Shown: positions 1,126 through 26,559 of the stretch, one piece after another | Layout: each line of letters opens with the position of its first letter | Numbering within the stretch: the stretch's first letter is position 1 | NCBI GenBank assembly: GCA_947495555.1 | Contig: CANLZI010000001.1 | Location: forward strand, 2,022,861 to 2,086,860 | DNA: 64,000 nt | Origin: an uncultured Erythrobacter sp. | Lineage (GTDB): Bacteria > Pseudomonadota > Alphaproteobacteria > Sphingomonadales > Sphingomonadaceae | Direction of reading: 5' to 3' | Notes under the pieces: generated by a model | What the model saw: the letters and a program-made list of their open reading frames with translations, nothing else | What the model was told of the DNA's origin: nothing | Database searches by the model: none | Made by a program: the position numbers and the translations under genes

Positions 1126-2292
1126 TTGAGCCAGAACATGACCGATTTGATTGAACAAAAGACAGCCGCAATTGGCGCGATTGATGCTTGCACTTCTCTG
1201 GAAGCATTGGATGAACAACGCGTAGCTGCGCTGGGTAAGAAGGGCTGGGTCAGCCTTGCCTTGAAAACGCTCGGCCAGATGAGCCCGGAAGAACGCCAAG
1301 AAGCCGCGCCTGCCATCCAAGCCGTGCGTGCCGAAATTGCCGCCGCGATTGATGCCAAGAAAGCCGCGCTGGAATCCGCCGCCTTGGAAGCGCAATTGGC
1401 GAGCGAGACGATTGACCTGACACTGCCTGCGCCAGCAACTCCTAAGGGTTCGATCCACCCGGTCAGCCAGGTGATGGACGAGCTGGCAGAAATCTTTGCC
1501 GATCTTGGATTTTCTGTCGCGACAGGCCCCGAGATTGAGGACGACTGGCACAATTTTACAGCGCTCAATATGGATGAAAGCCATCCCGCCCGCGCCATGC
1601 ATGACACGTTCTATTTCCCTGAGGAATTGGCGGATGATGGGCAACCGGCCTCAAGTAGCGAAGCGGTAGGCCACACAAAGATGCTGCTGCGCACGCACAC
1701 CTCGCCGGTGCAGATCCGATCGATGGCGAAACTGGCCGAGAAAACGCCAGGCGGTGAGCCGATCCGAATTATCGCTCCGGGCCGGGTCTATCGCTCGGAC
1801 AGCGATGCAACGCACACTCCTATGTTCCACCAGGTTGAAGGCCTGGTGATCGATCGTGACATTCACTTGGGCCATTTGAAATGGACCTTGGAAACATTCC
1901 TCAAGGCATTCTTTGAACGAGACGACATCGTGCTGCGTTTGCGGCCGTCCTATTTCCCATTCACCGAACCCAGTGTTGAGGTTGACGTGGGATACTCCAA
2001 GGAAGGCGGCCGCTGGGTCGTCGGCGGCAATGGCGATGATGCAGGCCATGATTGGATGGAGCTGTTGGGCAGCGGAATGGTCAACCGGCGCGTGCTGGAA
2101 TTTGCCGGTTATGACCCTGATCAATGGCAGGGCTTTGCCTGGGGCTTGGGCGTGGACCGGCTGGCCATGCTGAAATATGGCATGGATGATTTGCGCGCAT
2201 TCTTTGATGGCGATGTCCGCTGGCTGGATCACTATGGATTCAGCGCGTTCGATCAGCCGACCCTGTCCGCAGGCGTAGGAGCATCATCATGA
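1126..2292 (+). CDS. pheS: phenylalanine--tRNA ligase alpha subunit
   Basis: Class II aaRS motifs ([67 protein letters not shown]); followed directly by pheT; TTG start at 1126 or ATG at 1138. Confidence 0.97.
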
Positions 2293-4667
2293 AGTTTTCT
2301 ACAACCTGGCTGAAAGATCATCTCGAAACCGATGCGAGCCTTGCCCAGATCACTGATTGCTTGAACGCGATCGGGCTGGAGGTTGAAGGCGTTGAGGATC
2401 CCGCTGTTCGACTGGCAGGTTTTACTGTGGCCAAGGTTTTGACCGCCGAAAAGCATCCTGATGCGGACAAGCTGCAAGTGCTGAGCGTTGACGTTGGAGA
2501 TGGCGATCCGCTGCAAGTCGTGTGCGGTGCGCCCAATGCGCGCGCAGGAATGAAAGGCGTGCTCGGGCTGCCGGGTGCGAAGGTTCCGGCCAACGGAATG
2601 GAGCTGCGCAAAAGCGCCATCCGCGGGGTCGAGAGCAATGGCATGATGTGCTCTGTCAAAGAGCTGGAGCTGGGCGAAGATCACGACGGCATTATCGAAT
2701 TGCCTGCTGATGCGCCGGTCGGACATAGCTTTGCGGACTACAATGGCGCTGCGCCCGTTATCGACGTTGCGATCACGCCCAACCGCCCTGATTGCATGGG
2801 CGTGTATGGGATTGCGCGCGATTTGGCTGCGGCTGGCCTTGGTACGCTGAAACCGATTGCCATGCCCGGCTTTGATGCGTCGGGACCATGCCCGGTAGAT
2901 ATCCGCACCGACGATCCAGAGGGCTGCCCCGCGTTCTATGGCCGCGTGATTAAGGGCGTGAAAAACGGGCCATCGCCCGATTGGCTTCAGCAACGGTTGG
3001 CCAGCGCTGGCCAGCGCCCGATTTCATTGCTGGTGGATCTGACCAATTATCTGATGCTGGCGTTCGGTCGTCCGGCCCATATTTACGATCTCGCCAAATT
3101 GTCCGGTGCTGTCGTCGCTCGCCGGGCCAAGAACGGTGAGCAGGTGCTTGCTCTGAACGAGAAAACTTACACCCTTGATGATAGCATGGTGGTGATTGCA
3201 GACGACAATCAAGTCCATGACATTGCCGGTATTATGGGCGGCGAAGATTCGGGTGTTTCTGATGACACGACCGATGTGTTGCTGGAGATTGCCTATTTTG
3301 ACCCACCGCGGATCGGCGTGACGGGACGAAAGCTGGGCCTTGCCTCTGATGCGCGCACTCGGTTTGAACGCGGGGTTGATCCGGCGTTTCTGGGAGACGG
3401 GCTGGACCTGTTGACCGGTTTGATTGTCGAACTGGCAGGCGGCACGGCCAGCGAGGCTGTGCAGGCTGGTTCTGCGCCAAGTAAGGCCAAGCAGATCGCG
3501 TTCGATCCCGCCATGACCCAGCGGTTGGGCGGCGTGGATGTGCCGGTTGATGAGCAGCGCCGGATTCTTGAGAGCCTGGACTTTATGGTTGCCGATGGTT
3601 GGCCAACGAACGGACAAGTCAGCTGTCCTTTGCGCCGACATGACATCGAAGGTCCTGCCGATCTGGTCGAGGAAGTCGTGCGCATCCATGGCTTGGATAA
3701 GGTAGAAAGCGTTGCCTTGCCGCGGATGGAGGGCGTGGCCCGGCCAACTGCCAGCGCCGATCAGAAGCTGGAGCGGAAACTGCGCCGCGCTGCCGCCGCA
3801 AACGGATTGCATGAGGCGATCACTTGGTCGTTCATTTCTGACGAACAGGCGGCCGTGGTGGGCGGTGGTCATTGGTCGCTGGACAACCCGATCAGCGAAG
3901 ACATGAAAGTCATGCGCCCATCATTGCTGCCCGGCCTGTTGGCGGCGGTTCAACGCAATCTTGATCGCGGCGCATCTACCGTGCGTCTGTTCGAGATCGG
4001 GCGGCGTTATCTGGAAGACGGCGAGCATCCCACTTTGGTCTGCGTTCTGGCAGGCGACAAGATCGAGCGCGGCTGGGCCAATGGCAAAGCCAGCACGTTC
4101 GATGCCTATGATGCCAAGGCGATGTGTTTGGAATTGCTGGAAGCAGCTGGTGTACCGGTCGATAGATTGATGGTCATGGGTGAAGCAGGCGATGTTTATC
4201 ACCCCGGTCAATCGGCCACTTTGCGGCTTGGCCCAAAGAACCAGATCGCCAGCTTTGGCATGTTGCACCCATCTACGTTGAAGGCGTTTGATGTTGACGT
4301 TCCGGTTGCGGCTCTCGGCATCCATCTCGACGCGATCCCGGCAAAGAAAAACGCCAGCTTTGCGCGATCACCCTACGCACCGCCTGCCTTGCAAGCGGTC
4401 ACCCGTGACTTTGCCTTCCTTGTCCCGCAAGACCTTGCCGCTGGCGATCTGGTTAAGGCCGTTCGCGGGGCAGACAAAGCTAACATAGTTGCGGTCCAAG
4501 TGTTCGATGTGTTTGCCGGTGAGGGCGTGCCCGAAGGCAAGAAGTCGATCGCGGTGGAAGTCACACTCCAGCCGCAGGACAAATCCTATAAGGATGCCGA
4601 CCTGAAAGCGATCTCGGATGCGATTGTGGCGGCTGCCTCCAAGCAGGGGGCGCAGCTGCGCGGATAA
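2289..4667 (+). CDS. pheT: phenylalanine--tRNA ligase beta subunit
   Basis: N-terminal [12 protein letters not shown], tRNA-binding domain, B5 and FDX-ACB-like regions; 4-nt overlap with pheS. Confidence 0.97.
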
Positions 4668-4688
4668 TCTTCGCTCGGGCACAAGACC

Positions 4689-6209
4689 ATGTCAAACAGA
4701 CGCACATTCGCGATCATTTCGCACCCCGATGCGGGTAAAACCACGCTGACCGAGAAGCTGTTGCTACAAGGCGGCGCAATCCATCAGGCGGGCCAGGTCA
4801 AGGCGCGCGGCGAAGCCCGGCGTGCGCGCTCGGACTGGATGAAGATCGAGCAGCAACGCGGCATCTCGGTTACATCCAGCGTGATGACTTTCGAACGTGA
4901 CGGGGTAACCTTTAACCTGCTCGACACACCTGGGCACGAGGATTTCTCGGAAGACACCTATCGAACGCTTACTGCAGTCGACAGCGCAATCATGGTGATC
5001 GATGCGGCCAAGGGTATTGAGCCGCAAACGCGCAAATTGTTCGAAGTGTGCCGCCTACGCAGCGTGCCGATTATCACCTTCGTCAACAAGGTGGATCGCG
5101 AAGGCCGCCCGGTGTTCGAGCTGTTGGATGAAATTGCCGACATGCTGGCGCTGGATGTCAGCCCACAGGCATTCCCGATTGGCATGGGCGGTCAGTTCGA
5201 GGGCATTTTGGACTTCGCCAGTGGGCAGGTCGCTCGGCCCGAAGGTCCATCGAAAGAGTTTCAGGGTACGCGCGATGACAATCCGACCTTGCCGGAAGAA
5301 TTCGCCGAGAATGCTGAACTGGCGCAAATTGGCTATCCCGAATTTGACCTTGAGGCCTATCGCAATGGCGATCTGACGCCGGTCTATTTCGGGTCGGCGC
5401 TCAAGAATTTTGGTGTGACCGAATTGATCGAGGCGATTGCCAAGCTGGCGCCTCCGCCACGTCCGCAACCTGCAGGTGATCGGCAGATCGACCCCGATTA
5501 TGACGAGGTGACGGGCTTCATCTTCAAGGTGCAGGCCAATATGGACCCTAACCACCGCGACCGGATCGCCTTTATGCGGCAAGTGTCCGGCACCTTTAAG
5601 CGCGGTATGAAATTGACCCCATCAGGCTTAGGTAAGCCGATTGCGGTGCATTCTCCGATCCTGTTCTTTGCCCAGGACCGCGAGATCGCCGATACCGCAG
5701 AGGCGGGCGACATCATTGGCATCCCCAATCACGGCACCTTGCGGGTGGGCGATACGCTTTCTGAGAAGAACGAGGTACGCTTTACCGGCCTACCCAATTT
5801 TGCTCCGGAAATTTTACGCCGCGTCCAGCTGAAAGACCCGACCAAAACCAAGCAATTGCGCAAGGCGTTGGATGATCTGTCTGAAGAGGGCGTCATCCAA
5901 GTGTTCTATCCAGAAATTGGTGCGCAATGGATTGTCGGCGTTGTCGGCCAGTTGCAATTGGAAGTTCTGATCAGCCGGTTGTCGGCTGAATATAAGGTTG
6001 AGGCTGCGCTGGAGGCAGCACCCTTTGCGACTGCGCGCTGGATCAAGGGCGAGGATAAGGCTTTGGACGAGTTCGAGAGCTTCAATCGGGCCAATTTGGC
6101 AAAGGATCGCGATGGCGATTTGGTGTTTATGGCCAAGAGCCCGTGGGACGTGAATTATCAGCAGGAAAACAATCCCAAACTGACCTTTTCTGCCACCAAA
6201 GAGCGTTAG
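4689..6209 (+). CDS. prfC: peptide chain release factor 3
   Basis: GTPase motifs AIISHPDAGKTTLTEKLLL, DTPGHEDFSEDTYRTL, NKVDREGR; RF3-like layout. Confidence 0.95.
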   Translation: MSNRRTFAIISHPDAGKTTLTEKLLLQGGAIHQAGQVKARGEARRARSDWMKIEQQRGISVTSSVMTFERDGVTFNLLDTPGHEDFSEDTYRTLTAVDSAIMVIDAAKGIEPQTRKLFEVCRLRSVPIITFVNKVDREGRPVFELLDEIADMLALDVSPQAFPIGMGGQFEGILDFASGQVARPEGPSKEFQGTRDDNPTLPEEFAENAELAQIGYPEFDLEAYRNGDLTPVYFGSALKNFGVTELIEAIAKLAPPPRPQPAGDRQIDPDYDEVTGFIFKVQANMDPNHRDRIAFMRQVSGTFKRGMKLTPSGLGKPIAVHSPILFFAQDREIADTAEAGDIIGIPNHGTLRVGDTLSEKNEVRFTGLPNFAPEILRRVQLKDPTKTKQLRKALDDLSEEGVIQVFYPEIGAQWIVGVVGQLQLEVLISRLSAEYKVEAALEAAPFATARWIKGEDKALDEFESFNRANLAKDRDGDLVFMAKSPWDVNYQQENNPKLTFSATKER

Positions 6210-6261
6210 ATCGGCCAAGTGTATGCTTGCTCGGGCGAGCGCTTCGCGGCATGTAAGCGGC

Positions 6262-7131
6262 ATGAACGGTTCAGGACCCACATCGCAAACCTTTATCTCG
6301 CAGCGACTGCGACTCAACTACCTTGACTGGGGCAATCGCGGCAAACCGCCTTTGGTACTGGTCCATGGCGGGCGCGACCATGCACGCAATTGGGATTGGA
6401 CGGCGCAGGCCTTGCGCGATGATTGGCATGTGGTGGCGATGGATCACCGCGGCCACGGCGACAGCGATTGGGTGTCCGATGGCAATTATCGGTCCAACGA
6501 TATGGTCTATGATTTGGCTCAATTCATCCATCAATTGGGTGTTGGTCCCGTCTCGATCGTCAGCCACTCCATGGGCGGTAATGTGGCCCTGCGATATGCC
6601 GGTGTCGCGCCCGAAATGGTGCGCAAGATCGTTGCGATCGAGGGGCTAGGCCCCAGTCCTGACCGCCAAGCTGAAATGCGCAGCAAACCTTATCCGGAAC
6701 GCTTTGCCGAGTGGATCGGCAAGAAACGCTCGGCATCAGGCCGCACGCCGCGCAAATACAACAGCATTGAAGATGCCTTTGCTCGGATGATCGAGGAAAA
6801 CAGCTATCTCACACCAGAACAGGCCCGACATCTGACGATCCATGGGGTCAACCGGAACGAGGATGGCACCTATAGTTGGAAGTTCGATCCGCATCTCAAT
6901 GTCTGGGGTGTTGAGGATATTGCTGACGAATTTCTTCAGGATCTTTGGAGTGCTATCAGCTCGCCAACCCTGCTGCTCTATGGGGCAGACAGCTGGGCGT
7001 CCAACCCAGCCAAGGATGGCCGGATCAAATACTTTAAGACGGCTGAAGTGATCGAATTTGAAAAGGCAGGGCACTGGCTTCACCACGACCAATTTGACCG
7101 TTTTATCACTGTATTGAAGGATTTTCTCTGA
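6262..7131 (+). CDS. alpha/beta hydrolase
   Basis: LVLVHGGRDHARNWD, GHSMGG-like nucleophile elbow SHSMGGNVAL, C-terminal GHWLHHDQ; start uncertain (ORF opens at 6223). Confidence 0.88.
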   Translation: MNGSGPTSQTFISQRLRLNYLDWGNRGKPPLVLVHGGRDHARNWDWTAQALRDDWHVVAMDHRGHGDSDWVSDGNYRSNDMVYDLAQFIHQLGVGPVSIVSHSMGGNVALRYAGVAPEMVRKIVAIEGLGPSPDRQAEMRSKPYPERFAEWIGKKRSASGRTPRKYNSIEDAFARMIEENSYLTPEQARHLTIHGVNRNEDGTYSWKFDPHLNVWGVEDIADEFLQDLWSAISSPTLLLYGADSWASNPAKDGRIKYFKTAEVIEFEKAGHWLHHDQFDRFITVLKDFL

Positions 7132-7709
7132 TGGCCGATTTCTTCAATGCCTTGGAAGACAAGCATGTTGCCATGATCGAGCAACAGCCGGTTTTCTTTG
7201 TGGCGACCTCGGCACCTATGGGCCGGATCAATCTAAGCCCCAAAGGGTATGATGCCTTTCGCGTGCTCAGTCCAAAGCGTGTGGCCTATCTGGATCTGGG
7301 CGGATCGGGCAATGAAACGCATGCGCATCTGGCTGCTGATGGCCGGATCACCATCATGTTCTGTAATTTCCAACAGCCTGCGCTTATTCTGCGCATTTAT
7401 GGTCGAGGGGTTCCCGTGCTGCCGCAAGACGAGGGATGGGAGAAGCTGGCCAGCAATTTCACCCTGTTGCCCGGCACACGGCAGATATTTGTGATCGACA
7501 TTGACAGCGTGCAGAGCAGCTGCGGCTGGGGTGTGCCATTCATGTCGATGGAGGCGGAGCGGCCAACCCTGAAAAAGGCGCATGCTCAAGCCAATCCAAG
7601 CGAGTGGGAAGCCAAGACCGCGACGCGCATTGCGAGCATCGATGGTCTGCCGACCCGGGCCACCGACCGATACATTGCCGGAGAATCTGGAGAATCCGGG
7701 GCGGAGTAA
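7131..7709 (+). CDS. pyridoxamine 5'-phosphate oxidase family protein
   Basis: FVATSAPMGRINLSPKGYDAFRVL...YLDLGGSGNETHAHL...ITIMFCNFQ pattern of PNPOx-fold proteins; overlaps preceding gene stop. Confidence 0.85.
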   Translation: MADFFNALEDKHVAMIEQQPVFFVATSAPMGRINLSPKGYDAFRVLSPKRVAYLDLGGSGNETHAHLAADGRITIMFCNFQQPALILRIYGRGVPVLPQDEGWEKLASNFTLLPGTRQIFVIDIDSVQSSCGWGVPFMSMEAERPTLKKAHAQANPSEWEAKTATRIASIDGLPTRATDRYIAGESGESGAE

Positions 7710-7717
7710 CCAGCGCT

Positions 7718-8419
7718 TTGGAACTGACCATCGCCAGCTATAATATTCGCAAGGCCATCGGCCTTGACCGGCGTCGTGACCCTGATCGAATTATCAGCGT
7801 ATTGCGAGAGATCGATGCGGACGTCATCGCCTTGCAAGAGGTGGATCGACGTATCGGTCAACGTGCCAGCGCCTTGCCGCGCGCCTTATTGGATGACACG
7901 CCATGGCAAATCGTGCCCGTGGCGGTGCGCCCACGCAGCATCGGATGGCATGGCAACGCATTGCTGGTGAGGCGTGGTATCTCCATCATTCGATCCGAAC
8001 CGGTGGATTTGCCAACTCTGGAGCCTCGGGGTGCCATATCGGCTGATTTGCACTTCGCAGGCCATGACTTTCGGGTGTTGGGCGCGCATCTCGATCTTTC
8101 GGGCGTGCGCAGGCGTGCGCAAGTGAAGGCGATGTTGGCGGATTGCGAACGGCAATCACGGCCAATGCCAACAGTGATCCTGGGCGACTTCAACCAATGG
8201 ACCCAACAGCGGGGCGCTATGCAAAGCTTTGGCAACGGGTGGCGCGTGCTGCCGGCTGCCCGAAGCTATCCCTCGCGTCGGCCAATCGCTCGGCTGGACC
8301 GGATGGTAATCTCGGACGGATGGGAGTGCAGCAACAGCACGGTCCACCACAGCGCTTTGGCGACCCGGGCCTCTGACCATCTTCCCTTGGTTGCGCAACT
8401 CATGCTGCCTAAATATTAG
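7718..8419 (+). CDS. endonuclease/exonuclease/phosphatase family protein
   Basis: ASYNIRKAIGLD, ALQEVDRR, LGDFNQW, ASDHLPLVA motifs; likely TTG start at 7718. Confidence 0.88.
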   Translation: MELTIASYNIRKAIGLDRRRDPDRIISVLREIDADVIALQEVDRRIGQRASALPRALLDDTPWQIVPVAVRPRSIGWHGNALLVRRGISIIRSEPVDLPTLEPRGAISADLHFAGHDFRVLGAHLDLSGVRRRAQVKAMLADCERQSRPMPTVILGDFNQWTQQRGAMQSFGNGWRVLPAARSYPSRRPIARLDRMVISDGWECSNSTVHHSALATRASDHLPLVAQLMLPKY

Positions 8420-8438
8420 GCTATTGGCTAAAATTTAA

Positions 8439-8906
<468 letters not shown>

Positions 8907-8919
8907 CAGGGGAAAGACT

Positions 8920-10242
8920 GTGAAAAATACCCTCTTAAAATGCGCCGCGTTTGGCGCTGCAGGTCTGCTGTTTGCGCAGCCTGCTTTGGCGGCACCGGCA
9001 GCGGTTCCGAACCCGGGCAACAACGCCTGGATGATGACGGCTACCGTGCTCGTCTTGCTCATGATCTTGCCCGGCCTGGCCTTGTTCTATGGCGGTTTGA
9101 CCCGATCAAAGAATATGCTGTCCACCATGACACAAATTGGCGCGACGGCCGCACTGGCCATGCTTGTCTGGGTCATGTGGGGTTTCTCACTCGCCTTTGG
9201 TTCAAGCCCGATTGAAGGCTTCTTGGGCCAATTCATCAGTGGCGGAAGCTACTTCCTATCAGGGATGACGGCTGAAACAACGGCAGCGACCTTCACCGAT
9301 GAAGTGATCAGCGAATATGTCTTTGTAAGCTTCCAAATGACCTTTGCCGCGATCACCGCTGCACTGATCTTGGGCGCCACAGCTGAGCGTATGAAGTTCA
9401 ATGCTGTCATGATGTTCGTGCCGATTTGGCTGACGATCGTATATTTCCCGATCGCGCATATGGTTTGGGCTGGCGACGGATTGCTGTTTGCTGCCGGAGC
9501 GCTCGACTTTGCGGGCGGAACCGTGGTCCACATCAACGCCGGTGTGTCCGGATTGGTGCTGGCTTACCTTCTGGGCAAGCGTCGGGGTTATCCCGCTGAA
9601 CCCATGCCACCTCACTCGCTGACGATGACCATGGTTGGTACTGGTTTACTGTGGGTTGGCTGGTTTGGCTTCAACGCGGGCTCCGCATTGGAAGCTGATG
9701 GCTTTGCTGGCTTGGCTATGATCAACACCTTCGTAGCGACCGCTGCTGGCGCTCTTACCTGGATGGTCATCGAACGCATGATGGGCCACAAAGGATCAGC
9801 ATTGGGCTTTTGCTCGGGCGTGATTGCTGGCTTGGTTGCGGTAACACCTGCTGCCGGCAACAGTGGCCCGTTCGGAGCCATCCTGCTTGGCATCCTATCT
9901 TCGATCGTTTGCTACTTCTTCGTCGCGAAGGTCAAAGCCAAGTTCGGTTATGATGACTCGCTCGATGCTTTCGGCATCCACGGGATTGGCGGCATTGTCG
10001 GCGCGATTGGTACAGCCGTTGTGTATCAGCCGTTCCTTGGCGGCCCTGGCGATGGTTCAACCGGCGTTGGCGCTCAGCTCTGGATCCAGACCGAGGGCGT
10101 TCTTGTGACCATCGGATGGGCCGGTATTGGCACTCTGATTGCAGCCATGATTGTAAAAGCTCTCATCGGTCTGCGGGTCGATCCAGAAACCGAGGTCGAT
10201 GGTCTCGATATCTCGGAGCACGGAGAGCGCGCCTACAATTGA
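8920..10242 (+). CDS. amtB: ammonium transporter
   Basis: LALFYGGLTRSKN, HINAGVSGLVLAYLLGKR, FGIHGIGGIVGAIGT; GTG start with signal peptide just after glnK. Confidence 0.95.
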   Translation: MKNTLLKCAAFGAAGLLFAQPALAAPAAVPNPGNNAWMMTATVLVLLMILPGLALFYGGLTRSKNMLSTMTQIGATAALAMLVWVMWGFSLAFGSSPIEGFLGQFISGGSYFLSGMTAETTAATFTDEVISEYVFVSFQMTFAAITAALILGATAERMKFNAVMMFVPIWLTIVYFPIAHMVWAGDGLLFAAGALDFAGGTVVHINAGVSGLVLAYLLGKRRGYPAEPMPPHSLTMTMVGTGLLWVGWFGFNAGSALEADGFAGLAMINTFVATAAGALTWMVIERMMGHKGSALGFCSGVIAGLVAVTPAAGNSGPFGAILLGILSSIVCYFFVAKVKAKFGYDDSLDAFGIHGIGGIVGAIGTAVVYQPFLGGPGDGSTGVGAQLWIQTEGVLVTIGWAGIGTLIAAMIVKALIGLRVDPETEVDGLDISEHGERAYN

Positions 10243-10339
10243 TAATTATCTAATCTCAAGTTTGGCGGAGAGAGGCCTCCTAATCTCTCTCCTCTCTCCG
10301 CCTCTCCTTGTTCCTCCTGCGAACAAACAAACTGAACAA

Positions 10340-10371
10340 GGGCCAGAGCGAAAGCTCTGGCCCCTTTTTTT
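10340..10371. terminator. Rho-independent terminator (GGGCCAGAGC-GAAA-GCTCTGGCCC + T7)
   Basis: Perfect 10-bp stem with GAAA tetraloop followed by C and seven T; between convergent amtB and GMC oxidoreductase genes. Confidence 0.9.
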
Positions 10372-10419
10372 GTCTGGTCTCTGGTTCAGTTAAGAAGCGG
10401 AGAGAGGCGAAGTCAGTCG

Positions 10420-12009
10420 CTAGTGAGCTGCTGCAGCTTTTACAAAATCTGCACAACGCTCGCCAATCATGATGCTGGGTGCGTTGGTGTTGCCGCTGAC
10501 GATTTTGGGCATGACGCTGGCATCGGCCACCCACAATCCCTCGACACCGTTCACTTTCAACGTGGGATCAACCACCGCGTCCGGATCGCTGCCCATTCGG
10601 CACGTGCCGACGGGATGATAGACGGTGTCAGCGCGGTTGCGGATCAACTCATCCAAAGCGCTGTCATCATACAAATCAACCGGATGGCGATCGGTTGGGC
10701 CATAGGCTTGCATGGGAGGCGTATCGATTAAGCGATGCGACAGACGCACGCCTTCTCGCAACACGGCGATATCGCGTGGATCATCCAGGAAATTGGGGTC
10801 AAGGACCGGGGCCTGTGCCGCGTCAGCCGAACCCAGCCGCACTGTTCCACGGCTTTCAGGACGCAGCACGCAAGCATGCATGGAAAAGCCGTATCCTTTT
10901 ACATTCTCGCGGCCGTGATCTTCCAGAACTGCGGGCACGAAATGCCATTGAACATCGGGTGCGGGCGCATCTTGCTCGACCGACCAAAAGCCACCTGCTT
11001 CGGCATAGCAAGTAGTCATTGCGCCTGTGCGCTTGCGCCTATGTTCAAGAATCGCCGCAGCCATCTTCAGCGTACCCTTCAACGTTCCGCCGATAGGGGT
11101 CTCGGACTCGGTAGACCATCCCGAAACATAGTCGATATGGTCTTGCAGATTGGCGCCTACCTCGGGCCGATCGATGACCACCTCTATCCCGTGGTCTTTC
11201 AGATGCTGCGCCGGTCCAATGCCTGAAAGCATCAAGATCTGCGGGGAATTAAACGCTCCCGCGGATAGGATAACGCCGCGCCGCGCATAGATCGTTTCGC
11301 TTCGCCTGCCGCGCTTGACCCGCACGCCTGTGACGCGGCCGCCTTCGATCACCAGCCGCTCGACCAGCGTCTTGGTGCGAATAGTGAAATTGTCCTGTCC
11401 GCGGATTGGCTCGACATAGGCGCGCGCGGCTGACCAGCGCTCGCCCTTGCGTTGGGTCACTTGGTACAGGCCAAAGCCTGCCTGCGTTGCTCCGTTGAAG
11501 TCTGGATTGACCGGCAATTGCAATGCCGCCGCCGCTTCGACCATCGCCTCGCTGGTGGGGTTTGGCGAAACTTGATTGGATACGAACAGAGGGCCGCCAT
11601 CGCCGTGATATTCATCCGCGCCGCGTTCATTTGCCTCGGCCTTGCGGAAATAGGGCAAGACATCCTCATAGGACCATCCAGGGCAACCCATCGCGGCCCA
11701 ATTGTCATAGTCCCAGTCATTGCCGCGAATATAGACCATCGCATTGATGGCAGACGATCCACCCAATCCTTTGCCGCGCGGCTGATAGCCGATCCGGCCA
11801 TTCAGCCCCTTTTGCGGAACGGTTTCATATTTGTAGTTCGAAGAGCCACGAATAAATGGCATGAAGCCAGGCGTCTTGACCAAAATATTGTCATTGCTGC
11901 CCCCGGCCTCAACCAGACAAACCTGCTGAGAACCATCAACTGCCAAGCGTCCTGCAACTGCGCTTCCGCCGCTTCCGCCACCGATTACGATGTAGTCATA
12001 CTGTTCCAT
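10420..12009 (-). CDS. GMC family oxidoreductase (choline dehydrogenase-like)
   Basis: FAD-binding [63 protein letters not shown]. Confidence 0.94.
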
Positions 12010-12031
12010 GCTCTCTCCTTAAGCCAAGGAG

Positions 12032-13015
12032 TTAGGCAAGCTTTGTGCTGTCCGCAATCGAGTTTTGATCCGCCACTGAATTATTTGTGGCTGTGTCGTC
12101 AGTAATGTCGGCAATTGGATCGCTGCTGACGTCGCTTGCAAGGCGCTGTTGCCACCGCGCGCGGATCATATCCGATGTGTCGCGGCTTGCGTCATGGGTC
12201 CAACCCGGCTCGCGCAGCAAATAGGACAATTTGTGCTTCCATGGCGCGTGCCAAATGTCTTGAATCATCCCGATCCATTCATGGAATACCGCCCACAGCA
12301 GGTTGAAACTGCCCAGCTGTTTGACGATGCCATAGCGAATGGATTCTTCGCTGGTTTCCGGTTCGAATGTACCGAACAATTTGTCCCAGATGATGAAGAC
12401 GCCAGCATAATTGCGATCCAGATAGCGGGGATTGGTGGCGTGATGAACCCGATGATGGCTGGGCGTGTTCATAACAGTCTCGAACCAGCGGGGCATCTTG
12501 TCGATCGCCTCGGTGTGGATCCAGAACTGATAGATCAAATTGAAGCCGCCACAAATTGCCAGCATGACCGGATGGAACCCCAGCAGCACAAGCGGGAACC
12601 CAAACAAGATCCCGAATGTAAACGCGCCCGTCCATGTTTGCCGCAAGGCGGTGGAGAGGTTGTAATGCTGGCTGGAATGATGGTTCACATGGGCAGCCCA
12701 CATCCACCGGATGCGGTGGCCAGCGCGATGCACCCAGTAATATTTTAGATCGTCCAAGACAAAGCACACCGGCCAGGCCCACCACGCCCAACCAATATCA
12801 AACAGGCGATACTCCCACGCGGCCAGGAACAGCGCAAAGACAGTTCCGCCAAACAGCAGCCCGGCAACGGTTGAGCCTAGGCCAAAAGACAGGCTGATCA
12901 GCGTATCCTTAGGCTCATAGGCCTCGGGACGTCTGCGCCAGGCCCAGATCATTTCCACCAAGACCAGCAGGACAAATCCCGGAATGGCATAATCTGTCGG
13001 AGAAAAGTCAGGCAT
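12032..13015 (-). CDS. sterol desaturase / fatty acid hydroxylase family protein
   Basis: Histidine motifs WVHRAGHRIRWMWAAHVNHHSSQHYN and HRVHHATNPRYLDRNYAGVFIIWDKLFGTF. Confidence 0.92.
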   Translation of the reverse strand: MPDFSPTDYAIPGFVLLVLVEMIWAWRRRPEAYEPKDTLISLSFGLGSTVAGLLFGGTVFALFLAAWEYRLFDIGWAWWAWPVCFVLDDLKYYWVHRAGHRIRWMWAAHVNHHSSQHYNLSTALRQTWTGAFTFGILFGFPLVLLGFHPVMLAICGGFNLIYQFWIHTEAIDKMPRWFETVMNTPSHHRVHHATNPRYLDRNYAGVFIIWDKLFGTFEPETSEESIRYGIVKQLGSFNLLWAVFHEWIGMIQDIWHAPWKHKLSYLLREPGWTHDASRDTSDMIRARWQQRLASDVSSDPIADITDDTATNNSVADQNSIADSTKLA

Positions 13016-13454
13016 GGGCGGTTTCCATCGGAGTATTGGCGGCTTCTTCCCAGGCTTTCACCCATTGCTCGGGCTGCTGGAGCCGCAATTGCATGGAACC
13101 GAACCGCTTCTCGGCGCTGTTTATGATCAGGCCATCTTGGCTCAATTCCATGCGTGCATTGCTCGGCAATATTCGTCCGGCAAAATGGCTGCCATGGGGC
13201 CGCAGCAGCATCACCTGTCCTGCTGCATTGCGCAGAAGCGCGCCTTTGCCAGCTTGGTCTATGCCGATTTCCACTGCCTGAAAGCCGTCATGAACTTGGT
13301 CGGCCGCATTGCGCGCATCTTGCTCGGTCACCAATTTGGGCGTCGGTCCCAGCTTCAACCAATGCGCCAGCGCAGCCAGCAGGCCAATCGCCACCAACGA
13401 GCCAACAAACTGAAGAAGGATAGGAGAGACTTCCATGGCCAAATGGATTGGCAT
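13008..13454 (-). CDS. hypothetical membrane-anchored protein
   Basis: ORF with N-terminal TM segment (ILLQFVGSLVAIGLLAALAHWL), overlaps next gene start by 8 nt. Confidence 0.6.
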   Translation of the reverse strand: MPIHLAMEVSPILLQFVGSLVAIGLLAALAHWLKLGPTPKLVTEQDARNAADQVHDGFQAVEIGIDQAGKGALLRNAAGQVMLLRPHGSHFAGRILPSNARMELSQDGLIINSAEKRFGSMQLRLQQPEQWVKAWEEAANTPMETAHA

Positions 13455-13497
13455 GAATGCGTTGATGCGGCAAGATGCTGATCAGAGGAGACCGTCC

Positions 13498-14919
13498 ATG
13501 AAGTCTATTACGCGCTTTCTTGCCGCCGCCGCGCTCGCATCAAGTCCATTGTCTGCACAGCAAATTGATCCCGCAGCTGAAGTTGAGGCGCAGGAAGACC
13601 GGATTGAACGCGTTGCGCAACAATTGTGGGAATGGGCCGAACTTGGTTATTTAGAGGAGCGCACCAGCGGCCTGATGACGCAAGAATTGGCGTCCGAAGG
13701 TTTCAGCATTGAGACTGGCGTTGCCGAAATCCCAACTGCTTTTGTTGCCGAATGGGGAGAGGGCGGACCAATTATCGCCATCCTGGCGGAAATGGATGCT
13801 TTGCCCGGTATCAATCAATCCGCTGAACCCACTCGCGATCCGGTGGCAGGCAAACACGCCGGCCATGCCTGCGGTCACAATTTGTTTGGCGCGGGATCTT
13901 TGACAGCAGCTATCGCCGTGAAAAACTGGCTCGAGGCAACCGGTACGCCCGGTCGGATCAGACTGTATGGAACACCAGCAGAAGAGGGCGGCTCTGGCAA
14001 AGTCTATATGACGAGAGCAGGGCTATTCGATGATGTGGACATTGCCATCCATTGGCATGCCGATGACGAGAACAGCGCCGCGGCTAGTACTACTTTAGCC
14101 AATCGGTCGGCCAAGTTTCGCTTCTCCGGCATTTCGGCCCATGCAGCTGGTGCGCCTGAACGCGGGCGTTCTGCGCTGGATGGGGTGGAGGCCATGAACA
14201 TGATGGCGAATATGATGCATGAGCACATGCCGCAGGATGCTCGGATGCATTACGTGATCACTTATGGCGGGATCGCGCCCAATGTGGTGCCAGATTTCGC
14301 CGAAGTGTTTTATTACGTCCGACATCCCGATCCCGATGGTGTTGATGCGATTTGGGAGCGGCTCGAGAATGCGGCCAAAGGCGCTGCAATGGGCACTGCG
14401 ACCAAAGTGAATTGGGAAGTGATCCACGGCAACAACCCGCTGTTGGTCAACGAAACCTTGGCGAAGGTCATGGACGAGAAGCTGCGCGCGGTTGGCGGTG
14501 TAATCTATTCACCCGACGAAAAAGCCTGGGCAGAGAAGATCCAAGAATCGCTGGGCGAAGCCGCACTGCCGCTGGAAAGTGCGGCAGAGATTACCGCCTA
14601 TGGCAAATCTTTGGGTTATGGCTCAACCGATGTTGGTGATGTTTCCTGGGCGACGCCCACGGTTGGTGTCCGCACAGCAACGTGGGTGCCAGGCACCAGT
14701 GCGCATTCTTGGCAAGCGGTTGCTGCAAGCGGTCACTCGATCGGACACAAGGGTACGCAAGTAGCGGCAAAGGCGATGGCGCTGATGGCCGCCGAATTAT
14801 TCGTCAACGAGGATTTACGAACTGCCGCGAGACAAGAATTCGACGCTGCGAGAGGTGATAATTACACCTACAAATCGCTGTTGGGTGATCGTTCCCCGCC
14901 TCTCGACTACCGGCAGTAG
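13498..14919 (+). CDS. M20 family amidohydrolase (AbgB-like), secreted
   Basis: Signal peptide MKSITRFLAAAALASSPLSA; AILAEMDALPG, GKHAGHACGHNLFGAGS, GTPAEEGGSGKVYM. Confidence 0.9.
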   Translation: MKSITRFLAAAALASSPLSAQQIDPAAEVEAQEDRIERVAQQLWEWAELGYLEERTSGLMTQELASEGFSIETGVAEIPTAFVAEWGEGGPIIAILAEMDALPGINQSAEPTRDPVAGKHAGHACGHNLFGAGSLTAAIAVKNWLEATGTPGRIRLYGTPAEEGGSGKVYMTRAGLFDDVDIAIHWHADDENSAAASTTLANRSAKFRFSGISAHAAGAPERGRSALDGVEAMNMMANMMHEHMPQDARMHYVITYGGIAPNVVPDFAEVFYYVRHPDPDGVDAIWERLENAAKGAAMGTATKVNWEVIHGNNPLLVNETLAKVMDEKLRAVGGVIYSPDEKAWAEKIQESLGEAALPLESAAEITAYGKSLGYGSTDVGDVSWATPTVGVRTATWVPGTSAHSWQAVAASGHSIGHKGTQVAAKAMALMAAELFVNEDLRTAARQEFDAARGDNYTYKSLLGDRSPPLDYRQ

Positions 14920-14931
14920 TATGGCGGTAAG

Positions 14932-15372
14932 CTACGCCCCCTTATTGGCAGCGAACATGTCCATCGCTGGTCTTACTGGCGAAAGGTCATAGCCAGCTTG
15001 TTGCGCAGCCAATATCAGATCGTCGGGAGACTGTCCTGCCCGCGCTTGGGCCAATGCCCACAATAGCGTTGAACGAGTGCCGCTGCGGCAATAGGCCAAA
15101 ACGGGCCCGTCTGCGCCTTCCAGCGCTTGCTCCATCGCGGCGACTTGCGGTTCGCTAAAGCCGGTGTGCGAAATGGGAATGGCTAGATAGTCCATGTCGG
15201 CAGCGCGAGCGGCCGCCTCAATCTGGGGGCCTTGTGGTTCTTCAGGCGATTCTCCGTCAGGGCGGTTGTTGATCACCAACGTCACCCCAAGCGCTTTGGC
15301 TTCGTCCAATTGTTCGGGCTGGATTTGCGGGCTGGCATACATTGTTGGACTTAGTTTGCGAAAATCGCTCAT
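14932..15372 (-). CDS. TIGR01244-type sulfur transferase/phosphatase-like protein (DSP fold)
   Basis: VTLVINNRPDGESPEEPQG...YLAIPISHTGF...VLAYCRSGTRSTLLWALA. Confidence 0.85.
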   Translation of the reverse strand: MSDFRKLSPTMYASPQIQPEQLDEAKALGVTLVINNRPDGESPEEPQGPQIEAAARAADMDYLAIPISHTGFSEPQVAAMEQALEGADGPVLAYCRSGTRSTLLWALAQARAGQSPDDLILAAQQAGYDLSPVRPAMDMFAANKGA

Positions 15373-15658
15373 GGCACACCTGACTTTAGCGGATGATGAC
15401 GTTTTGACCGTTCTTTTGGTGGAAGAACGAGGGGCTGAGGGCTTCTTTAACGCCTCATGCGAAAATGTCACAATTCCACATGATGCAACCTCACTATGTT
15501 AAATCATTCGCATGACACCGCTTTGTGCGCTATGAGCCATTCTAGAGAGGTGGGGCTCGGCTGCTTTTTGCAGAGTCGCCACCGCGCTGGTTACGGATGC
15601 TGCCCCCGTTGCCAACGCAAGATACGACCGGGCGGTGAGACAAGGTACGACTACGGTT

Positions 15659-16420
15659 ATGGGTTACGATAGAGGGCGCCGCCGGGGCCGGGATAAACGC
15701 GACGGATTCGGTGAAGACGGCTTCGATCCTTTCGGCGGCGGAGACAAGTTTCCGCCCCAGCGCGACAGTTTTGGTGGTGGCGGTGATCGCTTCGGTGGCG
15801 GAGGCGGCGGAGGCCGTTTTGGCGATGACCGTGGCTCAGGCGGCGGCGACCGGTTCGGTGGCGGCGGCGGTGGTCGTGGACCTGGTGGCTCAGGCGGCGG
15901 TGGCGGTGGCGGTTTTGACCGCATGCCAGCTCAGGTCGTTGGCACCGGCAAGGGTGTTGTAAAATTCTTCAATTCGCAGAAGGGCTTCGGCTTTATTCAG
16001 CAAGAAGGTGGAGGCGAAGACGTCTTCGTCCATATCAGTGCTGTTGAGCGTGCAGGCCTTCAGGGTCTGGCCGAAGGCCAAGGACTGGAATTCAACCTGG
16101 TGGATCGCGGCGGCAAAGTTTCCGCCCAAGATCTGCAAGTTGTTGGTGATGTTATCGCTGTTGAAGAACGCGAATCGGCTCCACCCCAGCGCGAGTTGAC
16201 TGGTGAGAAAGCCATCGGCACCGTAAAGTTCTTCAACTCGATGAAGGGCTTTGGTTTCTTGGTGCGTGATGATGGCCAGCCAGACGCGTTTGTGCACATC
16301 AGTGCCGTTGAGCGTTCAGGCCTCCAAGCCATCAATGAAGGCGAACGGTACGAGTTTGACTTAGAGGTCGATCGACGAGGGAAGCACTCGGCGGTCAACC
16401 TTGCGCCCGTTCAAGGCTGA
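15659..16420 (+). CDS. cold-shock protein with Gly-rich N-terminus and two cold-shock domains
   Basis: Two copies of GxVKFFNSxKGFGFI/LV...[14 protein letters not shown]; N-terminal [13 protein letters not shown] and repeated DRFGGGG units. Confidence 0.92.
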
Positions 16421-16484
16421 TTCGCTTGCCACCTTGTCGGCCAATTGGCCGGGATCGTGGCAAACATCATAAACGGCGCGAAGT

Positions 16485-16509
16485 GGCGGTCCGGAAGGGC
16501 CGCCATTTT
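16485..16509 (+). terminator. Rho-independent terminator after cold-shock gene
   Basis: GGCGGTCC-GGAA-GGGCCGCC stem (one wobble) followed by ATTTT. Confidence 0.7.
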
Positions 16510-16558
16510 GCGTTGGCAATGCATTTAATTCTGAATTGAAATTGAAAAGGACTTACCC

Positions 16559-17749
16559 ATGTCGATCAGCCCATTGATGCCCGTTTACCCGCGTTGTGGA
16601 GTGCGGCCTGTGCGCGGTGAGCATTGCCATCTGATTGATGAAGACGGCACACGGTATCTTGATTTTGCCAGCGGCATTGCGGTGAATCTGCTTGGGCACT
16701 CGCATGAGGGATTGATCTCTGCGATTCAAAAGCAGGCCGAAACGCTGATGCATGTTTCCAACCTGTATGGCAGTCCGCAGGGCGAAAAGCTCGCTCGGCA
16801 ATTGGTTGATGCAACCTTTGCCGACACCGTGTTCTTCACCAATTCGGGCGCCGAAGCAGTGGAAACCGCGATTAAGACCGCTCGTGCTTATCACCAGCAC
16901 GAAGGTGATACGTCAAAGTTTGAACTGATCACCTTTGCCAATGCGTTTCATGGCAGAACGATGGCCACGATCAGCGCATCCAATCAGGAGAAAATGCACC
17001 ACGGTTTCTCTCCGTTGCTGGCCGGATTCAAATATGCCGAGTTTGACAATTTGGAATCAGCCAAGGCGTTGATGGGCCCCAATACCGCAGGATTCTTGGT
17101 TGAGCCTATTCAAGGTGAGGGCGGTATCCGCCCCGCTTCTCAGGAATTCATGCAAGGTCTGCGGGCTCTGGCAGACGAACATGACCTCATGCTGGTGTTG
17201 GATGAAGTGCAGTCTGGCGTCGCCCGCACAGGCAAGATGTATGCGCATGAACATTATGGGATCGCACCCGACATTATGGCGACCGCAAAAGGGATTGGCG
17301 GGGGCTTTCCTCTGGGTGCCTGCCTGGCAACCGAGAAGGCCGCGCGAGGAATGACCTTCGGCACGCACGGTTCTACCTATGGCGGAAATCCGCTTGCGAT
17401 GGCTGCGGGAAGCGCTGTCATGGAAGCAGTTGCCAATGACGAATTCCTCGCCTCCGTTGCAGAGAAGGGTGAACGGCTGCGGTCTCGGCTCGAGCAATTC
17501 ATCGGCAATTATCCCGAGCTGTTCGAGCTGGTTCGCGGCAAAGGCCTTATGCTGGGCATGAAGATGAAAGTCGAAAGCAGGCCGTTCTTTGTCCACCTTC
17601 GAGACAACCATCAATTGCTGACGGTTGCAGCAGGCGACAACACCTTGCGCGTATTGCCACCCCTGGTTCTGGGCGATGCGGAGATCGAAGAATTCTTCGA
17701 AAAACTTTCAGCTGGAGCAGCCAGCTACGAAGTTCCGGGTGATGGCTGA
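16559..17749 (+). CDS. argD: acetylornithine transaminase
   Basis: Class III aminotransferase ([76 protein letters not shown]); followed by argF. Confidence 0.94.
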
Positions 17750-23237: not shown

Positions 23238-24365
23238 TTACATGCCCGAACCCGGACCGTAAGTAACTTCAACACGACGGTTCTGAAGTTCGCGTACGCC
23301 GTCTTCGGTTGGAACGCGCAATTGCGTTTCACCAAAGGCTTCGCTTGAAACGCGATCTTCTGGAACACCGCGACCGGAAAGGTAATCGCGTACCGATTCG
23401 TTACGACGCTCAGCCAGACCCATGTTGTATGTCTGCGAACCCGACGCATCGGTGTGACCAGCCAACATGACGCTCGCAGAACCACAATCAGCATAGGCGC
23501 TAACTGCGTTGTCGAGAATCGTAGCCGCTTCCGGAGTGATATCCGACTCATCCCAGTTGAAGAACACGATGTATGGACCCGTGTTGCAAACCGGTGCCGG
23601 TGGAGGCGGCGGTGGAGGCGGTGGTGGAGGCGGTGGTGGAGGCGGTGGTGGCGGTGGCGGTGGTGGTGGAGGCGGAGCTTCAGGCTCGCCACCAAAGTTG
23701 TATGTCAACGTACCAAGCACCGAATGGCTACCAATGTCAGCTTCGATCGGACGACCAAGCGTATCGGTGATACCAACACCAACTGCATTGAAGTAACGAT
23801 ACTTCAGGCCAACGTCCCAACTGTCAGTCAAAGGTGCGCGAACACCCGCGAGCAACTGCCAAGCCAAGCCTGTGTCTGAATCGTCAAACGCACCTGGACC
23901 AATATCCAGAACCGTTGTTGTCAGATCAGTCCGTGCGATACCGATACCGCCGCCTGCAAAGCCTTGGATGCCGTCATCGTCGCCGAAATCAAACAGGCCG
24001 TTCAACATAAAGCTGAGCGCGTTGAATTCACCGCGGCCAACAGCCTGCCGGTTTGATACTGTAGTACCAGGACGAGCTACCAAGCCTTCTGTGCCGATTC
24101 TAACATCGTCAACTTCTGCTTCACGGTAGCTTGCTTCAGCTTCCAGACGGAAGGCGCCGAAATCGTAACCAACCAAGGCACCGAAATCATATCCAGTGTC
24201 TGTGCCGATTGTTGAGTCAGCGTCCGTACCATCAATTTCTAAATCAATGTCTTCTACGACCATCACGCCGCCTTCACTTGCGACGTACCATTGACCGTCG
24301 CGAGCAAGTGCGGGCGCTGCAAGCGCCGTCGAAGCCATCGCCATTCCAATGACGAGTTTGCGCAT
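23238..24365 (-). CDS. OmpA-family outer membrane protein with polyproline linker
   Basis: N-terminal beta-barrel domain, long poly-Pro run, C-terminal OmpA peptidoglycan-binding domain (AGHTDASGSQTYNMGLAERRNESVRDYL). Confidence 0.95.
   Translation of the reverse strand: MRKLVIGMAMASTALAAPALARDGQWYVASEGGVMVVEDIDLEIDGTDADSTIGTDTGYDFGALVGYDFGAFRLEAEASYREAEVDDVRIGTEGLVARPGTTVSNRQAVGRGEFNALSFMLNGLFDFGDDDGIQGFAGGGIGIARTDLTTTVLDIGPGAFDDSDTGLAWQLLAGVRAPLTDSWDVGLKYRYFNAVGVGITDTLGRPIEADIGSHSVLGTLTYNFGGEPEAPPPPPPPPPPPPPPPPPPPPPPPPPPAPVCNTGPYIVFFNWDESDITPEAATILDNAVSAYADCGSASVMLAGHTDASGSQTYNMGLAERRNESVRDYLSGRGVPEDRVSSEAFGETQLRVPTEDGVRELQNRRVEVTYGPGSGM
23598..23675 (-). repeat. 12-bp tandem repeat (TGGAGGCGGTGG) encoding 26 consecutive prolines
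   Basis: Direct reading of codons CCG/CCA/CCT; four near-identical 12-mers followed by degenerate copies. Confidence 0.9.
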
Positions 24366-24553: not shown

Positions 24554-24904
24554 TTAAGATCGTGCAAATATTCCTAAATTTCGCAATTCGGAGATGATTT
24601 CCGTTATGGCTTGTCTTGCCTCAACATCAATTGTTGTGCCGTTCTGAGGTTGGGCCGGGGCATCCGCTGATTGCCATGCACCATCGAATAGGAGCATCTG
24701 ACCTGAATGCTGGTCAAATACTCGCATTCCGGCGCAAGGTTGGATGAAAGACCATTCTGTTCCAACGCGGGTAGCAATATGTCCTTCGAATCCTGCCCAT
24801 TCGCCCGAGGGTGAAGGGTCAACCAACCAGTTGCCTCCATCATTGGAAGATACCGGCGAACTGGCAGATCGGCCGACTATGGCTGTATGCACTAAAGTAT
24901 CCAT
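24554..24904 (-). pseudogene. DUF2793 domain protein remnant (phage/GTA-associated), probably 5'-truncated
   Basis: MDTLVHTAIVG...GGNWLVDPSPSGEWAGFEGHIATRVGTEWSFIQPCAGMRVFDQHSGQMLLFDGAWQS follows the DUF2793 pattern; normal N-terminus absent and abuts terminase fragment. Confidence 0.7.
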
Positions 24905-25188
24905 GAGGCCTCCGCTAAAGAGGATGATATCAGCGCGATCCGCGCCTGCGGATTGGTTTCGGCAATGTGACGGACCCATTCGGCGCCCGTTCGCGTTTTG
25001 CCAAATCCGCGCCCGGCCATCACCAGCCAGACGCGCCAATCTCCATCCGGAGGTAATTGAGCGGTTCTGGCCCACATCTGCCAATGATAGGGAAACTCAT
25101 CCTTCTCTTCACAGTTGAACCTTTGGGCCAGCTGATCGCGATATTTGGGGTTGGCAGAGGCCAACCAACCCAACCGATCAGCCATCAT
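24892..25188 (-). pseudogene. large terminase subunit, N-terminal fragment only (98 codons)
   Basis: LVMAGRGFGKTRTGAEWVRHIAE (Walker A of terminase ATPases), ends at RIALISSSLAEASWIL*; rest of ATPase and nuclease missing. Confidence 0.85.
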
Positions 25189-25642
25189 CGCCGGTGTTTT
25201 CCTTAGCTTCTTGCATCACCCGCAAGCGGATTTCTTCCACCTTGCGGTCGATCGAACTGCGAATCTCGGCCGCGGTGACATTGCGTTTGGCGGCCTGCGC
25301 TCGCACCGCGTTTTCCCGGTGCATTGTGAGCAGCCGAATGACCGCGCCAAAATCATATTTGTCACCGTTGTCGGTTTGAAAGTCGCCTGCGCGCAGCAGC
25401 CGCAGAACTTCCATCTCGAGATGCTCATATCCCTCATACAGGGCATCCATCCATCGGCGCGCAAATTCGGGTTCATTGATCCGGGTGCGATATGCTTTCC
25501 CTTTTGGCACTCCAGCGGCCTCGGCCGATTTGGTAACATTGGAGGATTCGGCCAGAGCCTCCAGGAAGCGATCCCGCCAACGGGTGTTGATCTGACGACC
25601 GCGGTTGGTTGCATTCTGGGTCGAGCCCTTGGTTTTACCCAT
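25178..25642 (-). CDS. TerS-like / phage small-terminase-type protein upstream of the terminase fragment
   Basis: HTH-like ALAESSNVTKSAEAAGVPKGKAYR; immediately upstream and overlapping the TerL fragment start by 11 nt. Confidence 0.6.
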   Translation of the reverse strand: MGKTKGSTQNATNRGRQINTRWRDRFLEALAESSNVTKSAEAAGVPKGKAYRTRINEPEFARRWMDALYEGYEHLEMEVLRLLRAGDFQTDNGDKYDFGAVIRLLTMHRENAVRAQAAKRNVTAAEIRSSIDRKVEEIRLRVMQEAKENTGDDG

Positions 25643-25908: not shown

Positions 25909-26559
25909 ATGATGAAAATGCTGCACGGTCTGTACGATTGGACCATGGACAAGGCTTCGCATCCCAAGGCGCAGTGGTGGCTGGCCTTTTTCTCTTTCAT
26001 CGAATCGAGCTTCTTTCCGATCCCGCCACATCCATTGCTGGGGCTGATGTGCTTGGCTGAGCCGAAGAAAGCCATTCGGTTCGCCTTGATCGCGACTATC
26101 GCTTCGGTGCTGGGCGGTATGTTCGGATATATGATCGGGTACTTCTTGTACGAGGCGATCGGTGCCTGGCTGATCGGAGCGCTTGGTCTGACCGAAACCT
26201 TCCCGGTTGCGGCATGCTATATTCGTGAACAAGGCGCGCTGGCGGTATTCTTGGCAGCCGGTACGCCAGTGCCGTTCAAGCTGATGACCATCACCGCCGG
26301 TTTTGTGGAGATGAACCTTCTGTCCTTCACCTTGGCGGCCATCGCCGGGCGGGCATTGATTTTCATGGTGGTGGGCGTGCTGTTTCAGTTGTTCGGCGCC
26401 CCGATCAAACGCATCATTGATCGCTACCTTGGGTGGGTCACAACCGTCTTTGTCGTGCTGGTTGTGGGCGGATTTATTGCGTTTACGCAGCTGGCCGGCA
26501 GCGAGGATGAGACGCAATCCAGCAATGCCTGCGATCTGGCGACGGAAATACGTGGCTGA
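25909..26559 (+). CDS. YqaA/DedA-type (SNARE-associated, VTT) membrane protein
   Basis: WWLAFFSFIESSFFPIPPHPLLGLM...IGYFLYEAIG...FLAAGTPVPFKLMTITAG. Confidence 0.88.
   Translation: MMKMLHGLYDWTMDKASHPKAQWWLAFFSFIESSFFPIPPHPLLGLMCLAEPKKAIRFALIATIASVLGGMFGYMIGYFLYEAIGAWLIGALGLTETFPVAACYIREQGALAVFLAAGTPVPFKLMTITAGFVEMNLLSFTLAAIAGRALIFMVVGVLFQLFGAPIKRIIDRYLGWVTTVFVVLVVGGFIAFTQLAGSEDETQSSNACDLATEIRG

Follow-up and report, generated by a model that had tools for sequence, protein, structure and literature searches.

The closest described systems to the locus reported here are the gene transfer agent (GTA) clusters of the RcGTA type, known from Rhodobacter capsulatus and from sphingomonads including Citromicrobium (PMC3338782). 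DUF2793 has been named as a tail-fibre family among GTA genes, and the pseudogenization and loss of GTAs in alphaproteobacterial lineages have been read as takeover by cheaters together with deletion bias (PMC10883770). It is an open question whether selection maintains GTAs or whether they are constantly lost to cheaters. We analysed a 64,000-nt stretch from an uncultured Erythrobacter sp. (assembly GCA_947495555.1, contig CANLZI010000001.1, positions 2,022,861 to 2,086,860 of the forward strand), hereafter the window. Its closest intact relative agrees with the described clusters in gene families, gene order and size (~14 kb), whereas the window keeps only the two ends of such a cluster and its genome has no capsid or tail-sheath genes. 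Like the lost clusters of PMC10883770, the window represents a GTA-negative lineage close to GTA-positive relatives. In contrast to those reports, the losses described here are mapped to the base, and most of those in the family share one register-exact junction. GTA loss itself is already known; the family-wide, register-exact pattern is what is new, and we found no description of a recurrent register-exact GTA deletion in the literature searched. Taken as a whole, we consider it likely that the window carries a GTA deletion scar and that its family is subject to a recurrent deletion at a hotspot.

The closest match to the TerS protein of the window (97% amino acid identity, 5 changes in 154 residues) lies on another uncultured Erythrobacter contig, CANLZP010000001.1 (L002/L040, here L040). 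This locus holds a complete RcGTA-type cluster of ~14 kb between the same yqaA-like and ompA-like flanking genes as in the window, at ~94% nucleotide identity. The genes run TerS, a 442-aa TerL, HK97 portal, S78 protease, HK97 capsid and head-tail connector, followed by tail tube, GTA-gp10, tail-sheath TIM barrel/Rcc01695, baseplate hub, an NlpC-type gene, Rcc01698/megatron and DUF2793. The GTA-specific families PF11836 (GTA-gp10), TIGR02217 (Rcc01695), TIGR02218 and PF23666 (Rcc01698) were all matched, together with HK97 portal and capsid. The GTA locus has this fixed position between the yqaA-like and ompA-like genes in most of the intact and deleted loci examined, across genera. The window retains the following features.

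23238–24365, minus strand: OmpA-like protein, which also borders the GTA locus on the right in relatives (tblastn synteny)
24554–24904, minus strand: DUF2793 remnant (GTA tail fibre family), residues 37–152 of 152 (PF10983, E = 8e-18, above cut-off; L040 alignment)
24905–24908, minus strand: deletion junction, a 4-bp interval with 0–2 bp of microhomology ('CC') and one base unassigned (blastn of both flanks against L040)
24907–25188, minus strand: TerL remnant, codons 1–94 including Walker A AGRGFGKT (L040 alignment, phrog_2, PF03237 N-terminus)
25178–25642, minus strand: TerS, GTA terminase small subunit, intact ORF of 154 aa (phrog_4044, E = 2e-12; L002/L040 alignment)
25909–26559, plus strand: yqaA-like membrane protein, which also borders the GTA locus on the left in relatives (tblastn synteny)

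The window aligned to positions 336–2125 of L040 and then to positions 14983–17394, with ~94% identity. Homology on the left stops at 2125 and on the right restarts at 14983–14985, so that the window lacks ~12.86 kb, L040 positions 2126–14984, from TerL codon 95 to DUF2793 codon 36. An earlier note, made from the sequence alone, had proposed that one internal deletion removed the capsid and tail module and left both ends, with the TerS-TerL head joined directly to a DUF2793 tail-end gene. The alignment it suggested, with a relative carrying the full cluster between the same flanks, bore this out when done with L040. The three ORFs lie where it placed them, and its placement of the junction at 24895–24915, a ~20-bp uncertainty, is now narrowed to the 4 bp given above. 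Two details needed amendment. The 98-aa TerL ORF (24892–25188, minus strand; phrog_2 E = 6e-5, PF03237 match below cut-off) does keep the N-terminus through Walker A, but only 94 of its codons derive from TerL; the final four residues and the stop are DUF2793 bases read in the wrong frame, to 24892. Similarly, an ORF does begin at the ATG at 24904 that had been taken as the start of DUF2793, but this ATG encodes an internal Met of the intact protein, of which the first 36 residues are missing and the last 116 are kept.

The remnants have diverged little from L040. In the TerL remnant 271 of 282 nucleotides and 94 of 94 residues were identical, with 11 silent changes and no amino acid change, and 107 of 117 DUF2793 codons, counting the stop, were the same in translation. 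Because the TerL remnant protein is unchanged, we take the loss to be recent. Searches of the window's genome (2.78 Mb, 100% complete) found no HK97 capsid elsewhere, no GTA tail-sheath domain and no TerL sequence beyond codons 1–94, and DUF2793 was present once. With neither capsid nor tail-sheath domain elsewhere, the genome therefore has no second GTA cluster, a point that the earlier note had raised. We conclude with high confidence that one recent deletion, most likely by end joining with 0–2 bp of homology, took ~12.86 kb out of an RcGTA-type gene transfer agent and left the scar seen in the window. Judged from its gene content, the organism, left with TerS and useless cluster ends, should be unable to make GTA particles.

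We searched with full-length TerL through 301 genomes of the family and 114 genomes of the window's genus. A match was found in 239 of the 301 family genomes; most were full length, and many covered only residues 1 to ~151. At these shortened loci TerL is fused directly to DUF2793 at residue ~20, and portal, capsid and tail genes are missing. The GTA capsid was absent from the genomes with hotspot-deleted loci, in which only two weak prophage-type matches were found. Full or near-full TerL was present in about 58 of the 114 genomes of the genus, where 30 of the 32 informative TerL-cutting deletions start at TerL codon 151, just before Walker B. Twenty-eight of the 30 join DUF2793 codon ~20 in one register and the other two join g15. 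The exceptions among the 32 are G549, cut at about codon 116 near a contig end, and the window itself, cut at codon 94; the window did not use the hotspot site, and its break needs no special mechanism.

The hotspot junction was carried by about 60 genomes in about 20 genera. From the H150 codon of TerL to the Q codon of DUF2793 the distance is exactly 10 bases in 53 distinct junction sequences and 11 in one, in a sample partly picked with the register-10 pattern. The surveys based on TerL involved no such selection, and they agree. One extra base also occurs in L078 and in the split assembly G241. The common product resembles CAYGC-NN-GCCGRGCAG, with the two middle bases contributed by one side or the other. 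Among 401 genomes of the order, the junction pattern occurred in 29, every one of them in this family, and the reversed pattern in none. These findings suggest a recurrent, position-specific deletion in the family. The earlier note would have been contradicted by relatives that share the same short arrangement as a conserved gene set. Many relatives do show TerS-TerL'-DUF2793, but this is not a conserved gene set: the arrangements represent repeated scars, because their junction differs from that of the window, they are interleaved with intact relatives and some have decayed.

Deleted and intact loci interleave in trees of the TerL N-terminus and of DUF2793. The TerL tree across the family required 22 changes of the deleted/intact label, compared to a mean of 21.8 after shuffling, and the DUF2793 tree 20 changes versus 19.8. 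A genus tree from the flanking genes (about 1000 columns) gave 13–15 label changes, 9–10 of them forced by well-supported branches, and with deletion counted as irreversible, 10–14 origins among 19 hotspot loci; each of these trees represents one locus that recombination may blur, and the genomes are one per species, with no direct ancestor-descendant pairs. We also aligned eight deleted/intact pairs at base level. Their deletions span 9.5–13.2 kb, and the partners share lineage-specific bases right up to the junction, as in L344/L375 (QFSHA before it and SGQ after it) and L349/L373 (EPFINH). In most of 35 loci compared, the two junction bases equal either the TerL bases (a wobble position plus T) or the last two bases of the DUF2793 F, Y or I codon in the closest intact relative. 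Together, the trees, the pairs and the junction bases favour many in-situ deletions, and independent recurrence at the hotspot is the reading we think probable.

A single ancient origin would also account for an identical register in about 60 genomes. The register-exact junction would have arisen once, long ago, and the deletion allele would since have moved by homologous recombination, its flanks being re-homogenized to each host lineage; it might perhaps have been carried by GTA particles, whose capacity is below the size of the intact cluster. Alphaproteobacterial GTA hosts do recombine, and microhomology does not explain the join. We nevertheless regard one origin as unlikely, although it deserves serious weight. 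In the sister pairs, lineage-specific bases lie 0–9 bp from the junction on both sides. Deleted loci of different genera were no more alike than deleted-intact pairs when silent positions close to the junction were compared, including those of the 10 codons adjoining it. Of 35 loci, 23 have the two junction bases predicted from their nearest intact relative, where 13.7 would be expected with random relatives. Furthermore, the same left site served for a second product, in which TerL codon 151 is fused to g15.

Independent recurrence also has to be set against an error of assembly or of the databases, for which three draft assemblies could be cited. Two of them, G241 and G147, have a contig end and a contig start at the precise points where an intact and a deleted form would part and rejoin, and in G690 one contig ends at the divergence point while an overlapping contig reads through the joined form; a contig with the GTA interior is missing from all three. 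Contig ends of this kind would arise if the assembly graph included the intact form as well as the deleted one, and in these assemblies they may mark mixed populations. An artefact is very improbable for the hotspot junction as a whole, since in many genomes the joined form is internal to one long contig, it also occurs in a metagenome-assembled contig from another collection (L005), and the joined sequences carry lineage-specific substitutions and in some cases decay, such as the TerL stop in L349.

Selection could instead have domesticated TerS-TerL(1–151)-DUF2793 as a mini-locus. Its ORFs are open in most deleted loci and nonsynonymous changes are few in close pairs, but we give this possibility little credence. 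The cut in TerL falls before Walker B, the reading frame of the TerL remnant ends at variable points, a large minority of loci have lost the junction ATG (CACGC), and both stops and DUF2793 decay occur; pN/pS was about equal in deleted and intact loci, a measure that is saturated and informative only for the closest pairs. The hotspot-deleted loci L349 (G666), L356, L350 and L358 are visibly decaying, with a TerL stop codon or an altered or shortened DUF2793, and this decay is evidence that the remnants are scars. Finally, the earlier note had allowed for a prophage as well as a GTA, and although TerS, TerL and DUF2793 are phage-type families, an ordinary prophage remnant is scarcely credible at the window, given the GTA-specific families of the intact relative (GTA-gp10, Rcc01695, Rcc01698/megatron) and one locus conserved across genera.

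Recurrent in-situ deletion at sites specified by sequence could proceed as follows. Deletion starts at TerL codon 151, immediately after CAYGC and before the two variable bases, and ends at DUF2793 codon ~20, immediately before the GCCGRGCAG-like motif, in a fixed register. The sites may be joined either by site-specific recombination or by end joining after a nuclease cut with a ~2-bp stagger. The resulting GTA-negative cells would then be favoured or tolerated, in line with the cheater idea of PMC10883770. By our own analogy, the fixed register and the origin of the two junction bases from either parent site would resemble the products of serine recombinases, with their 2-bp crossover; unlike in those systems, however, the hotspot has no clear symmetric sites, and the analysis turned up no recombinase or other enzyme, no known family of sites and no excised circle.

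The two g15 products bear on the right end. L345 and L346 (genomes G652 and G697) show a second recurrent junction, which runs from TerL codon 151 into g15 at a GCCGAGC motif without a change of register and keeps the 3' part of g15 and DUF2793. The site of the g15 join corresponds, in the intact relative of L346, to the sole exact GCCGRGCAG of the 13.4-kb cluster, and this speaks for recognition of DNA at the right end. The motif is common to the DUF2793 and g15 ends and lies in conserved codons, and so partly reflects protein constraint. The left motif, CAYGCNTGG, also sits in conserved codons (H-A-W-C-D-E), and the test of its sequence requirement was weak and confounded by phylogeny. In IMG/VR we found no joined junction and no clear circular-junction sequence, the search giving two candidate matches, and the TerL-portal gaps of some clusters, read by eye, held no obvious homing endonuclease. 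Only tentatively, we suggest that a site-specific excision system, built into the GTA clusters of sphingomonads or encoded by their hosts, uses TerL codon 151 and DUF2793 codon 20 as recombination sites. Populations would thereby continually yield GTA-negative cells through an exact deletion of ~13 kb, which would turn producers irreversibly into non-producers.

A recurrent base-level register of loss, with intact and deleted forms that apparently coexist, provides a countable marker of GTA loss, and the rate of loss could be measured in a single culture by one PCR or a read scan. If a specific enzyme does the cutting, it would control a domesticated virus in a new way.

GTA clusters of this family erode in many ways. 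Off the common register, besides the window, are L079 (TerL codon 152 joined to g10/g11), L092 and L096–L098. Partial deletions join capsid to DUF2793 in L109 (G205), portal to DUF2793 in L044 (G047), portal to g9 in L114 (G195), TerL to g10/g11 in L079 (G108) and TerL to g13 in L092 (G084). L109, joined at DUF2793 codon ~20, was considered as a hotspot case and rejected: its intact relative has CGGGCAG microhomology in the capsid gene, which makes this an ordinary microhomology deletion. Fuller loss at the same locus between yqaA and ompA was seen in G299 (L176), G006 (L177), G020 (L178) and G067 (L180), which keep only TerS and a DUF2793 end, or only a g15 end (or portal end) and DUF2793. 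DUF2793 is often the last gene remaining at such loci.

Similar ORFs lie between yqaA and TerS in two genera (L085, 6186–7154; L104, 1203–2150), and by eye they look like IS1595-type transposases. The OmpA-like protein of the window (23238–24365) has a long poly-proline stretch. Contigs of two relatives (G372 C19 and G536 C30) begin within the ompA-like homologue, probably at an assembly break caused by the repeat.
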